A stretch of DNA of 64,000 bases from Methylomagnum ishizawai. GTDB taxonomy: Bacteria; Pseudomonadota; Gammaproteobacteria; Methylococcales; Methylococcaceae. This document shows positions 9,138 to 31,825 of this stretch, piece by piece. The position numbers and the translations under genes were made by a program. Below the pieces are notes generated by a model. The model searched no databases. It was not told the origin of the DNA and saw only the letters and a program-made list of their open reading frames with translations. Within the stretch, counting starts at the first letter, position 1, and each line of letters begins with the position of its first letter. Location: contig NZ_FXAM01000001.1 of NCBI RefSeq assembly GCF_900155475.1, forward strand, positions 3,544,881-3,608,880, read 5' to 3'.

Positions 9138-11411
9138 ATGAACCCAACCCACCGCTTCTTCGCCACCGCCCCCCTGGGACTGGAACTGCTCCTGGCCCAG
9201 GAACTCCGCGATCTAGGCATCGCCGATGTCACCGAAGCCAAGGCCGGTGTCGCCTTCGGCGGCGACCTCGAAACCGCCTACCGCGTCTGCCTGTGGACCC
9301 GCCTCGCCAACCGGGTCTTGCTGCCCATCGCCCAATTCCCGGCGGACAGCCCCGACGCCCTCTACGCCGGGGCCGCCCGCATCGAATGGGCCGACCACAT
9401 GGACGCCGAAGCCAGCTTCGCCGTCGATTTCGCTGCCAACCGCTCGCAGATTACCCACACCCTGTTCGGGGCGCAGCGGGTCAAGGACGCCATCGTCGAT
9501 TATTTCCGCGCCCGCTCGGGCACCCGGCCCTCGGTGGACCTCGCCGAACCCGAAATCCGCATCAACCTCTACCTCGAACGCGACCTCGCCACCGCCAGCA
9601 TCGACCTGTCCGGCGACAGCCTGCACAAACGCGGCTACCGGCTCGACGGCGGCAAAGCCCCGCTCAAGGAAAACCTCGCGGCGGCGATCCTGCTCCGCGC
9701 CGGTTGGCCCCGGATCGCCGCCGCGGGCGGGCAGTTCATCGACCCCATGTGCGGTTCCGGCACCCTGCCCATCGAGGCCGCGTTGATGGCGGCGAAAGTC
9801 GCGCCCGGTTTGCGCCGGTCCTGGTTCGGCTTCCTAGGCTGGCGCGGACACCGGGCCGGCCTCTGGCAAACCCTGCGCGACGAAGCCCAGGCCCAAGCCC
9901 AGGCCGGCCTCAAAAACCTGCCCGCCATCGTCGGCTACGACATCGACCGCGAAGCCGTACACACCGCCCTCGCCAATGTCGAACGCGCCGGTTTGCGCGG
10001 CCTGGTCCATATCGAGCGCAAAGCCCTGGCCGAAGCCCGCCCGCGCCTGGCCCACGGACTGGTGGTGGCCAATCCGCCCTATGGCGAGCGCCTGGGCGAA
10101 GAAGAAACCTTGGTCCCGCTCTACACCGGACTGGGCGCGACCCTGCGCGAACATTTCCAGGGCTGGCAGGCCGCCGTGTTCACCGGCAACCCGGAACTGG
10201 CGTTCAAAGTCGGCATCCGCGCCCGCCGGTTCTACGCCCTCTATAACGGGGCCATCGAATGCAAGCTGTTCAACTTCGAGATCGCGCCGGAACGCTTCTT
10301 CACCCCGCGCGAAGGCGGTGCCCCGAGCGAGGCCCAACGCCAGCACAGCGCCTTGTTCCGCCAAGCCCGCGCCATCGACGCCAACAGCGGCGGCGCGGCC
10401 ATGGTCGCCAACCGCCTGCGCAAGAATTTGAAAAACCTGGGGCGCTGGGCCAAGCAGGAGGGCATCACCTGTTACCGGCTGTACGACGCCGATTTGCCGG
10501 AATACGCGGTGGCGGTCGATCTCTACCAAGGCGACAAGTCCGCCGGGAGCGGACTTGGACGTGCGGAGCGCGGCCCGGAGGGTGAGCCCCAGGGAAGGGG
10601 CGAACAACAACTGTGGGCCCAGGTCCAGGAATACGAAGCCCCCGCCACCATCGATCCCGCCAAGGCCGAAACCCGCTTCCTCGAAGCCCTGGCCGCGATC
10701 CAAGCGGTGCTGGAGCTACCGCCCGCCCAAATCTTCCTCAAAACCCGCCGCCGCCAAAAAGGCACGGCCCAATATGAGAAACAAGCCGAATCGGGCCGGT
10801 TCTTCGTGGTGGAGGAAGGCGGCTGTAAGTTCTGGGTGAATTTCGAGGATTACCTGGATACCGGGCTGTTCCTCGACCACCGCCCGGTGCGACTCATGAT
10901 CCAGCGGGAAGCCCAGGGGAAAAGCTTCCTCAACCTGTTCGCCTACACCGGCACGGCCACGGTCCACGCCATCCGCGGCGGGGCCAGCGCCACCACCACG
11001 GTCGACCTGTCGCGCACCTATCTGGATTGGGCCGGACGCAACCTGGAACTCAATGGGATGCGCGGCCATCGACACGAGTTGATCCAGGCCGATTGCCTGG
11101 AATGGCTGGCCGAGGCGGTGCGCGGCAACTGGCGCTACGACCTGATTTTCCTGGACCCGCCGACCTTTTCCAGTTCCAAGCGGATGCGCGACACCCTCGA
11201 CGTGCAGCGCGACCATGTCGGCTTGATCCGCCAATGCGTGGCGCTGTTGGCAGCGGGCGGCAAGCTGCTGTTCTCCACCAACCACCGCAGGTTCAAGCTG
11301 GAGACGGAGGCGCTGGCCGATCTGCGGATCGAGGACATCAGCCGCAAAACCCTCCCCAAGGATTTCGAGCGGGATGCGCGGATCCATCGCTGTTGGGCGA
11401 TCACCCGCTGA
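9138..11411 (+). CDS. rlmL: Bifunctional 23S rRNA (guanine-N2)-methyltransferase RlmL / (guanine-N7)-methyltransferase RlmK
   Basis: 757 residues, slightly longer than the usual 700-720. The N-terminal half has a THUMP domain (start to about 160) and an N6/N2-type methyltransferase with VVANPPYGERLG. The C-terminal half is a second Rossmann methyltransferase (SFLNLFAYTGTATVHA, then FLDPPTFSSSKRM). In E. coli this protein makes m2G2445 and m7G2069 in 23S rRNA. A Gly/Arg-rich insert at about 470-490 (GSGLGRAERGPEGEPQGRG) in the linker is not in the usual family and accounts for part of the extra length. No operon partner: acyP is 130 bases downstream. Confidence 0.95.
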   Translation: MNPTHRFFATAPLGLELLLAQELRDLGIADVTEAKAGVAFGGDLETAYRVCLWTRLANRVLLPIAQFPADSPDALYAGAARIEWADHMDAEASFAVDFAANRSQITHTLFGAQRVKDAIVDYFRARSGTRPSVDLAEPEIRINLYLERDLATASIDLSGDSLHKRGYRLDGGKAPLKENLAAAILLRAGWPRIAAAGGQFIDPMCGSGTLPIEAALMAAKVAPGLRRSWFGFLGWRGHRAGLWQTLRDEAQAQAQAGLKNLPAIVGYDIDREAVHTALANVERAGLRGLVHIERKALAEARPRLAHGLVVANPPYGERLGEEETLVPLYTGLGATLREHFQGWQAAVFTGNPELAFKVGIRARRFYALYNGAIECKLFNFEIAPERFFTPREGGAPSEAQRQHSALFRQARAIDANSGGAAMVANRLRKNLKNLGRWAKQEGITCYRLYDADLPEYAVAVDLYQGDKSAGSGLGRAERGPEGEPQGRGEQQLWAQVQEYEAPATIDPAKAETRFLEALAAIQAVLELPPAQIFLKTRRRQKGTAQYEKQAESGRFFVVEEGGCKFWVNFEDYLDTGLFLDHRPVRLMIQREAQGKSFLNLFAYTGTATVHAIRGGASATTTVDLSRTYLDWAGRNLELNGMRGHRHELIQADCLEWLAEAVRGNWRYDLIFLDPPTFSSSKRMRDTLDVQRDHVGLIRQCVALLAAGGKLLFSTNHRRFKLETEALADLRIEDISRKTLPKDFERDARIHRCWAITR

Positions 11412-11541
11412 CCCGGCTACCGGATGCAACGTTTTGTGGTGTAATCTCGTACAGCCTGTAGCGATACACCCAGCAGGCACGGCCCAAAACCATGGGCGTT
11501 CATTATCGGAAACTTGAAAACCAATTACAGGGCCGGGATCG

Positions 11542-11823
11542 ATGCGACAGCGCGTGCATGTATGGGTAAGTGGCCGGGTGCAGGGCGTGTATTTCCGGGG
11601 AACGGCGAAAACCCAGGCGATGGAATTGGGGTTGGCGGGCTGGGCGCGTAACCTCGCCAGTGGCGGGGTCGAACTCCTGGTCGAGGGTCCGCCCGAACGC
11701 ATCGCCCAATTCCTGGCCTGGTGCCGGTCCGGCCCGCCCCTGGCGCGGGTGGACGAATGCCGGGTGGTCGAGGAAAAGCCGCTGGGCGATTGCGTGGGTT
11801 TCGAGGTGCGGCGCAGCCATTGA
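11542..11823 (+). CDS. acyP: Acylphosphatase
   Basis: 93 residues, the normal length. The signature GRVQGVYFR (11-19) contains the phosphate-binding loop and catalytic Arg19. WARNLASGGVELLVEG contains the catalytic Asn37 and the second signature, with Asp/Ser partly changed. The protein hydrolyses carboxyl-phosphate bonds of acylphosphates in the cytoplasm. The stop codon overlaps the predicted -35 of the downstream regulatory RNA candidate. Confidence 0.93.
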   Translation: MRQRVHVWVSGRVQGVYFRGTAKTQAMELGLAGWARNLASGGVELLVEGPPERIAQFLAWCRSGPPLARVDECRVVEEKPLGDCVGFEVRRSH

Positions 11824-11849
11824 GCCGTCCGCCGCCCATCCGATATAGG
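11820..11849 (+). promoter_or_regulatory. Predicted sigma-70-like promoter of the GGA-rich RNA
   Basis: TTGAGC (11820-11825), 18 bases, then TATAGG (11844-11849). It would start transcription near 11856, at the first hairpin of the RNA candidate. Sequence match only. Confidence 0.4.
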
Positions 11850-11855
11850 TACCGA

Positions 11856-12165
11856 TGCGGATATATCCGCAAGGACCGGCATGGTTAACTTGCCACCCAG
11901 AGGCGTTATCCAAGGGATGGGGACCATAACGGCGGAGGAAAAGGATTCCGGGCGGCCCAAGGAGGGGCGGCAGGGATGAAGACTGGTTCAGGACATGAAC
12001 CGATGGAATCCCGACAATCCGGTTTCCCCCGCCGTGGCGAAAGGAATCGCCCGCCTCGTAACCGTCGGTCGTTCGAAGTCGTTGATCGCTTGGCCGGGGT
12101 GTCGCCCGGTCTCTGAAGCCCATGCCGCCCAAGCCGGTCGTTCCGGCTTGGGCGGATTTTGTTGG
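11856..12165 (+). ncRNA. Candidate CsrB/RsmZ-type regulatory RNA (CsrA/RsmA-sequestering)
   Basis: An intergenic stretch of about 310 bases ending in a strong intrinsic terminator, with no plausible gene. It contains twelve GGA trinucleotides. Several sit in the loops of short perfect hairpins: GGAA-AAGGA-TTCC (11937-11949), GCCC-AAGGAG-GGGC (11955-11968), GGTTC-AGGACAT-GAACC (11985-12001) and GGCGA-AAGGAA-TCGCC (12036-12051). GTTAT...ATAAC (11905-11930) and CCG-CAAGGAC-CGG (11867-11876) may form two more. GGA in hairpin loops is the binding element of CsrA/RsmA, and RNAs such as CsrB, RsmY and RsmZ are arrays of it. No database match was tested, and the exact 5' end is a guess from the promoter. 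Confidence 0.72.
12125..12162 (+). terminator. Rho-independent terminator of the GGA-rich RNA
   Basis: A perfect 13-base inverted repeat: arms 12125-12137 and 12143-12155, beginning CCGCCCAAGCCGG, with loop TCGTT. It is followed by ATTTTGTT. No gene ends nearby, which supports an independent transcript upstream. Confidence 0.9.
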
Positions 12166-12267
12166 TTCTACCCCCGGCGGTCGGGATTGCCGGTTCGCCC
12201 ATCCCCCCTGGAGTGGCGGTACAATTCAGCCCGCCCGCGGCCGCGCCGCTTCTTCCAGGACAGCGCC

Positions 12268-12867
12268 ATGTTCGACAAACCCGCCCTGACCCAAACCCCC
12301 ATCGCCGATCCCCTGGCCCGCCGCTGGAGTGGCCGGGCCTACGATCCCACCCGTCCGGTCGAGCCGGAAAAACTCGCCGCCTTGTTAGAAGCCGCCCGTT
12401 GGTCGCCCTCCTGTTTCGGGGACCAGCCCTGGCGCTATCTGATCTGGGACCGGCTGGGCGATCCCGAGCGCTGGCGGCGGGCCTTCGACTGTTTGGTGGA
12501 AGGCAACCGCGGCTGGGCCGCCCATGCGCCTTTGCTGATGCTGGCCTGCGCCGACCGCCAGTTCACCGATGGCCGTCCCAGCCGCTGGGGCCAGTACGAC
12601 ACCGGGGCCGCCAGCATGAGCCTGTCGGTCGAGGCCACCGCGCTGGGCCTGATGGTGCATCAGATGGGCGGCTACGATCCCGCCAAAATCCGCGCCGAAT
12701 TCGCCATCCCCGAACGTTACGACTGCATGGCGATGTTGACCGTCGGCTACCAATTGCCCGAAAGCCAAATCCCCGAAGACCTCAAAGCCCGCGAATACGC
12801 CGCCCGCAGCCGCCGTCCCCTGGGCGAAAGCTTCTTCGTCGGCGATTGGGACCGGCCCTACGCCTGA
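12268..12867 (+). CDS. Nitroreductase family protein
   Basis: 199 residues from ATG 12268; upstream in-frame codons belong to the RNA region. The N-terminus RRWSGRAYDPTRPVEPEKLAALLEAARWSPS is the classic nitroreductase start with the FMN-contacting Arg and Ser. It is followed by FGDQPWRYL and the mid-protein SVEATALGLMVHQMGGY, typical of flavin dimers of the NfsB/TM1586-like group. Likely an FMN-dependent NAD(P)H oxidoreductase of the cytoplasm with an unknown natural substrate. It is followed by the HTTM-DCC gene after 107 bases, and the two may be co-transcribed. Confidence 0.88.
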   Translation: MFDKPALTQTPIADPLARRWSGRAYDPTRPVEPEKLAALLEAARWSPSCFGDQPWRYLIWDRLGDPERWRRAFDCLVEGNRGWAAHAPLLMLACADRQFTDGRPSRWGQYDTGAASMSLSVEATALGLMVHQMGGYDPAKIRAEFAIPERYDCMAMLTVGYQLPESQIPEDLKAREYAARSRRPLGESFFVGDWDRPYA

Positions 12868-31651: not shown

Positions 31652-31743
31652 TCGCAAACGGCGGACGCCACCGGGGAAACCTGGCGGTGGTCCACCGGCA
31701 CCGACGCTATAGCGCCGCGCCCACCATCCTGCGCGGCCTGCCG

Positions 31744-31779
31744 CCCTTGGGCGGACTTTAGCCGCCCAAGGGGATTTTT
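31744..31779 (+). terminator. Rho-independent terminator
   Basis: Perfect 11-base arms CCCTTGGGCGG (31744-31754) and CCGCCCAAGGG (31762-31772), followed by GATTTTTG. It probably belonged to the lost PEP-CTERM gene and now insulates the ICMT-like gene. Confidence 0.8.
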
Positions 31780-31825
31780 GCTTATCATGGCGCTCCCTAC
31801 CCTATCGAACCCATACCATTCCGCC

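Follow-up and report, generated by a model that had tools for sequence, protein, structure and literature searches.

Between an acylphosphatase gene and a nitroreductase-like gene lies a stretch rich in GGA that ends in a strong terminator, and the question is whether it gives rise to an RNA that binds CsrA and, if so, of which kind. The first-pass annotation took it for a free-standing CsrB/RsmZ-type small RNA with its own promoter, with a putative part in tuning carbon or biofilm programs in a methanotroph. We call window the whole stretch of DNA analyzed (64 kb), which belongs to contig C1 of a 5.48-Mb genome (G000); the sister species of the genus is G001.

Organization of the acyP locus

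The features of the locus are as follows:

9138..11411, + strand: rlmKL, 23S rRNA methyltransferase RlmK/RlmL (NCBIfam NF008748, 966 bits)
11542..11823, + strand: acyP, acylphosphatase, proposed to form the upstream portion of the transcript (open reading frame, model matches)
11820..11849, + strand: doubtful promoter-like pair TTGAGC-18-TATAGG (read by eye)
11850..12163, + strand: GGA-rich structured region with 9 A(N)GGA within 11873-12045 (motif counts, shuffles)
12125..12160, + strand: intrinsic terminator with a perfect 13-bp stem and a 5-nt loop, followed by ATTTT (terminator scan)
12268..12867, + strand: nitroreductase-like gene, downstream (NCBIfam matches, below their cut-offs)

The acylphosphatase models match acyP with at most 86 bits, each below its curated cut-off where one is shown. 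A match to acyP was present in 33 of 38 family genomes, and rlmKL was found at the same locus in 24 of the 30 acyP loci, so the two genes may form a unit (five loci from the acyP scan of genome contigs, none of the window's bacterial family, were left out). A relative of the nitroreductase gene, sought by tblastn (E ≤ 1e-4) within ca. 1.5 kb past acyP, was located 3′ of it in only two of the 30 loci, those of G000 and G001, and the latter also keeps the gene order. The gap between rlmKL and acyP (window 11412-11541) possibly holds an acyP promoter and leader. Both species share sequence blocks here, GCCTGTAGCGATACACC and GGGCGTTCA among them, and a weak terminator-like hairpin lies at 11482-11497. 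A small conserved protein in the stretch was rejected on inspection: indels of one or two bases separate the two species in the 3′ half, and substitutions are numerous elsewhere.

The 13-bp perfect terminator described previously at 12125-12155 was confirmed, with 11 G-C pairs in the stem and ATTTTG after it. Such a Rho-independent terminator is a trait of CsrB/RsmY/RsmZ-type RNAs, and this one is conserved in G001 (98% identity over 12121-12162). A published search filter (PMC5568370) takes a poly-U no more than 60 bp from the last ANGGA; at this locus, more than 100 nt separate the two.

Abundance of GGA motifs

Twelve GGA in about 300 bases had been reported, and the count holds: there are 13 in 11824-12165, or 12 if the one inside the terminator stem is left out. 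The excess of plain GGA is weak (13 versus 9.5 expected from dinucleotide shuffles, P = 0.083). The usual form of CsrA sites is A(N)GGA, i.e., GGA with an A at -1 or -2, and here the excess is strong, with nine distinct motifs in G000 (at 11873, 11915, 11937, 11943, 11961, 11974, 11991, 12005 and 12043) versus 2.66 expected (P = 0.0004, 5000 shuffles) and eight in G001 versus 2.57 (P = 0.0014, shuffles).

The genomic background consisted of the window and 40 stretches, each of 20 kb, together 864 kb out of 5.48 Mb. Nine motifs per 180 nt were reached by a single one of 171,324 overlapping windows on both strands, namely, at this locus, and eight by 17, some of them also here; in 11 places there were at least seven, with a terminator (by the rule used) only at this locus, and among 40 strict terminators sampled, this one has nine motifs in the 280 nt upstream and the other 39 at most four (mean 1.8), all ranks that are flattered by the choice of the place for its GGAs in the first-pass annotation. 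Two other places with eight motifs were discarded. L104 16100-16300 lies inside a 438-codon open frame, and L107 18160-18430 forms the last part of an open frame that runs, by eye, into apparent tRNA genes on the opposite strand.

Hairpins and predicted fold

Four perfect local hairpins carry a GGA in the loop:

11937..11949, + strand: GGAA-AAGGA-TTCC, lost in G001
11955..11968, + strand: GCCC-AAGGAG-GGGC, kept in G001, one outer pair C-G changed to U-A
11985..12001, + strand: GGTTCA-GGACA-TGAACC, loop GGA lost in G001 (AGGACAT to AGGGCAT)
12036..12051, + strand: GGCGA-AAGGAA-TCGCC, kept in G001, loop AGGGAA with the GGA retained

These hairpins, with stems of 4 to 6 bp, agree with the earlier claim of at least four, a number reached by 0.3% of 31,520 background windows. 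Their conservation is partial. In G001, the AAGGAG loop is unchanged and AAGGAA has become AGGGAA, while the AAGGA hairpin and the GGA of AGGACAT, the loop GGA of GGTTCAGGACATGAACC, are gone, leaving two GGA-loop hairpins (ca. 11% of background windows reach two). The hairpin at 11857 (GCGGATATATCCGC) is broken in G001. According to PMC7652899, CsrA favors GGA in hairpin loops, and its SELEX ligands have mostly six-base loops; both GGA hairpins kept in G001 (11955 and 12036) have loops of six bases.

The region 11856-12165 folds at -145.6 kcal/mol, versus a mean of -126.3 (sd 5.5) in 300 shuffles, and three GGA fall within hairpin loops of the minimum free energy (MFE) structure, versus 0.57 in shuffles (P = 0.01). 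By ensemble folding, four of the nine motifs are mostly unpaired in G000 (11961, 11991, 12005 and 12043) and two of the eight in G001. Mean motif exposure is 0.52 in G000, 0.32 in G001 and 0.51 in 14 Rsm-type RNAs of sister genera (see below). In the two-sequence consensus fold of G000 and G001, both sides had changed in 2 of 85 pairs, too few to prove the structure.

Conservation in the sister species and beyond

Homologous DNA is clear only in G001 (E = 3e-96); a search of the remaining 39 genomes with the stretch gave short matches at best, with E values of 0.009 or worse. Among the matches listed for paralogues within G000, all were short as well (0.036 or worse). Between the two species, the stretch is 85% identical, the 32 nt after acyP 78%, and the genes ca. 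95%. The neighboring gaps range from 79% (rlmKL-acyP) to 90% and 94% for the others, and the GGA-rich stretch is no better conserved than they are. From the nine A(N)GGA of G000, six are in place in G001 and three are lost, including one hairpin-loop GGA; two were gained, giving the total of eight. When the same substitutions were placed randomly (10,000 runs), at least eight motifs were kept in 24% of the runs and six or more were kept in place in 32%.

A model of the stretch built on both species (R1) matched six of 38 genomes at E ≤ 1. Beyond G000 and G001, the best value was 0.126, and of the five weak matches four extend to the terminator part of the model. Aligning the gap in relatives, proposed with the first-pass annotation, shows eight motifs and the terminator in G001 and detects no homologue outside the genus. 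The acyP loci of g9 were considered as counterparts, since five are GGA-rich (4 to 6 motifs per 180 nt; the sixth, L059, has 2), and set aside because, by eye, the GGA-rich bases resemble a conserved neighboring gene.

Promoter, GacA box and known RNA families

The promoter proposed at 11820-11849 can be read by eye, yet a consensus scan of 11400-12300, which may miss other promoter types, found none, and the pair is not conserved in G001 (indels, other spacing, second hexamer unmatched). Transcription that continues from acyP into a 3′ UTR is therefore the simplest account.

The consensus of the GacA/UvrY box is TGTAAG-N6-CTTACA. Near the locus there is no such box: the best match in 11420-11860 has four mismatches in G000, and the best in G001 three, a value reached by 6 of 100 shuffles. 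The three GacA-box matches of the 64-kb window all lie away from the locus. Genome-wide, G000 has no box with one mismatch or less, and boxes with up to three are uninformative, since there are 362 a strand versus 610 for the reversed pattern. The genome does encode CsrA (92.9 bits) and a GacA/UvrY-like regulator (248.5 bits, below the cut-off of 280).

The covariance search that had been suggested as a check gave no Rfam match at the locus. Nothing reached the gathering threshold in the 64-kb window, and around the locus, with E up to 10, only an unrelated miRNA model appeared, below its cut-off. CsrB (RF00018) was found in 0 of 41 genomes at E ≤ 1, and RsmZ (RF00166) gave sub-threshold matches in 12 of 41, none of them over the cut-off or at this locus. 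Membership of the stretch in the CsrB/RsmY/RsmZ families is not supported.

An Rsm-type RNA family in sister genera

GacA boxes are abundant in some of the 38 family genomes and not in others (in G012, 17 versus 1 for the reversed pattern). Among 20 box-bearing stretches, four lead into an array of 4 to 5 A(N)GGA with a shared block, and a fifth (L195) has four motifs without the block. The covariance model of the four arrays (R2) finds 14 of 38 genomes with E values of 1.4e-6 or better, ten of them outside the model set. A GacA box with up to two mismatches lies upstream of eight of these ten loci, versus 0 of 400 random 130-nt stretches. A model of all 14 sequences (R3) finds the same genomes (4e-18 or better), as expected from its construction.

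L197-L210, match ca. 1501-1640 of each: Rsm/CsrB-type RNA family, ca. 130-145 nt (14 of 38 genomes)

The members have a GTCGCC/GGCGA helix, GGATAAGGA-like and CAAGGA motifs, a GCCAACCAA block and a terminator, and 12 of the 14 are preceded by a GacA box (up to two mismatches) that begins 56-67 nt ahead of the model start. At the gathering threshold, Rfam recognizes none of the 14 loci; a laxer search brought up one hit below the cut-off, anti-hemB at L184 (20.2 of 49.5 bits). The family, unmatched by the Rfam copy used, would offer a testable Gac/Rsm switch for the related genera. In G021, a second, degenerate copy with one A(N)GGA and without a GacA box lies ca. 900 nt further downstream (L197 2552-2696).

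Rsm-type RNAs of related genera are thus picked up by these methods, and the GGA-rich stretch is not among them. In a filter-off scan of the window, the locus gave nothing but a match on the minus strand, to the terminator stem (4.9 bits). The family was not detected in either genome of the window's genus: in G000 there was no R2 match at E ≤ 1 (85 of 1197 candidates scored) and no R3 match at E ≤ 10 (85 of 2004), and G001 had one R3 match at E = 7.7; because only the best first-look candidates are scored, absence in G000 means "not detected." The best R2 match within the window, at 31694-31785 (12.8 bits, E = 0.026 for 64 kb), is weak and probably due to chance. Elsewhere in G000 (L163, C1 near 4247971), there are two copies of a ca. 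36-base repeat, GTCTGAATGATG.CCTGTTATTGAAGGGATTAA, which by eye we take to resemble CRISPR repeats.

What the stretch may be

Tentatively, we favor the reading that the stretch is a structured acyP 3′ UTR, or an RNA derived from one, with the ability to bind CsrA. Transcription and its start, the release of a fragment, the binding of CsrA and the effect on its pool are all steps that we infer. The rlmKL-acyP or acyP transcript would read through into a long structured 3′ UTR and end at the terminator (12125-12160), perhaps with a fragment of ca. 300 nt being released. The A(N)GGA motifs, of which some sit in hairpin loops, could offer sites to CsrA dimers, which would bridge the exposed GGAs (11961, 11991, 12005 and 12043 in G000). 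The RNA might then act as a modest sponge that lowers free CsrA; alternatively, the acyP mRNA itself might be a CsrA target, its fate tied to CsrA.

We give only slightly less credit to the view that this is an ordinary 3′ UTR or intergenic spacer whose terminator is good, that its GGA excess is a chance pattern singled out when the whole window was read, and that CsrA is not involved. The locus was picked for its GGAs, and plain GGA is barely in excess. Neutral evolution explains the motif retention in G001, where three of nine motifs are lost and exposure drops to 0.32; the conservation is ordinary (85% against gaps of 79%, 94% and 90%), and the stretch is limited to the genus. All this weakens the case for CsrA binding. 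What speaks against a plain spacer is the strong fold, the surplus of A(N)GGA (9 in G000, 8 in G001) and the first place in motif number, both across the 864 kb and within the set of 40 terminators. CsrA binding is further favored by the GGA excess in MFE loops, by an exposure in G000 equal to that of the Rsm-type RNAs and by the csrA gene, and a weak, unconserved promoter before a conserved terminator fits a 3′ UTR.

The free-standing CsrB/RsmZ-type RNA with its own promoter, as originally proposed, appears quite unlikely. In its favor are the GGA array and its hairpins, the conserved terminator and a genome with CsrA and GacA-like genes, which are compatible with a CsrA-binding RNA. Against it, Rfam gives no match, the best GacA-box candidate has four mismatches (three in G001), no promoter is seen by scan or by conservation, no homologue was detected outside the genus, and the models of the sister genera's Rsm RNAs miss it. 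Least probable of all, to the point that we give it very little weight, is a cis-acting leader of the nitroreductase gene, i.e., a structured RNA whose terminator is switched by a ligand or protein. The strong fold, the stem end 112 nt before the start codon and the gene order kept in G001 would suit it, but no Rfam model matches, and the 102 nt after the terminator, 94% identical between the species and with a TACAAT hexamer at 12220, suggest that the nitroreductase gene has its own promoter.

If CsrA does bind the acyP 3′ UTR, a 3′ UTR would serve as a CsrA sponge in a lineage without a detected GacA-controlled Rsm RNA, and one would have to ask by what means CsrA is controlled there. It is conceivable, although unlikely, that in this genus the 3′ UTR of rlmKL-acyP, a housekeeping transcript, became the CsrA antagonist, so that CsrA would follow the expression of that unit and not a two-component signal.

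Comparison with known CsrA-binding RNAs

With CsrB/CsrC and RsmX/Y/Z of Gammaproteobacteria, the stretch has in common many GGA, some in hairpin loops, a terminator, and a genome with CsrA and a GacA-like regulator. It differs from them in the absence of a covariance-model match, GacA box and conserved promoter, in having two to four clearly exposed motifs and being genus-limited, and in lying directly 3′ of acyP on the same strand. The Rsm-type RNAs of the sister genera (R2, R3), from the same family, also have an A(N)GGA array before a terminator; however, they are 130-145 nt long, with 3 to 7 motifs, the GTCGCC/GGCGA helix, the GCCAACCAA block and mostly a GacA box, and neither helix, block nor box is found at the acyP locus. 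Titles and the opening lines of abstracts, covering few subscription journals, yielded no report of such RNAs in methanotrophs. In Campylobacter jejuni, the CsrA ligand is reportedly the 5′ UTR of the flagellin mRNA, whereas here it would be a 3′ UTR with putative CsrA binding. That flaA mRNA, described as a CsrA-titrating mRNA (PMC4894983), resembles our proposal in that a protein-coding transcript serves as the CsrA ligand, a role that is only predicted for acyP.
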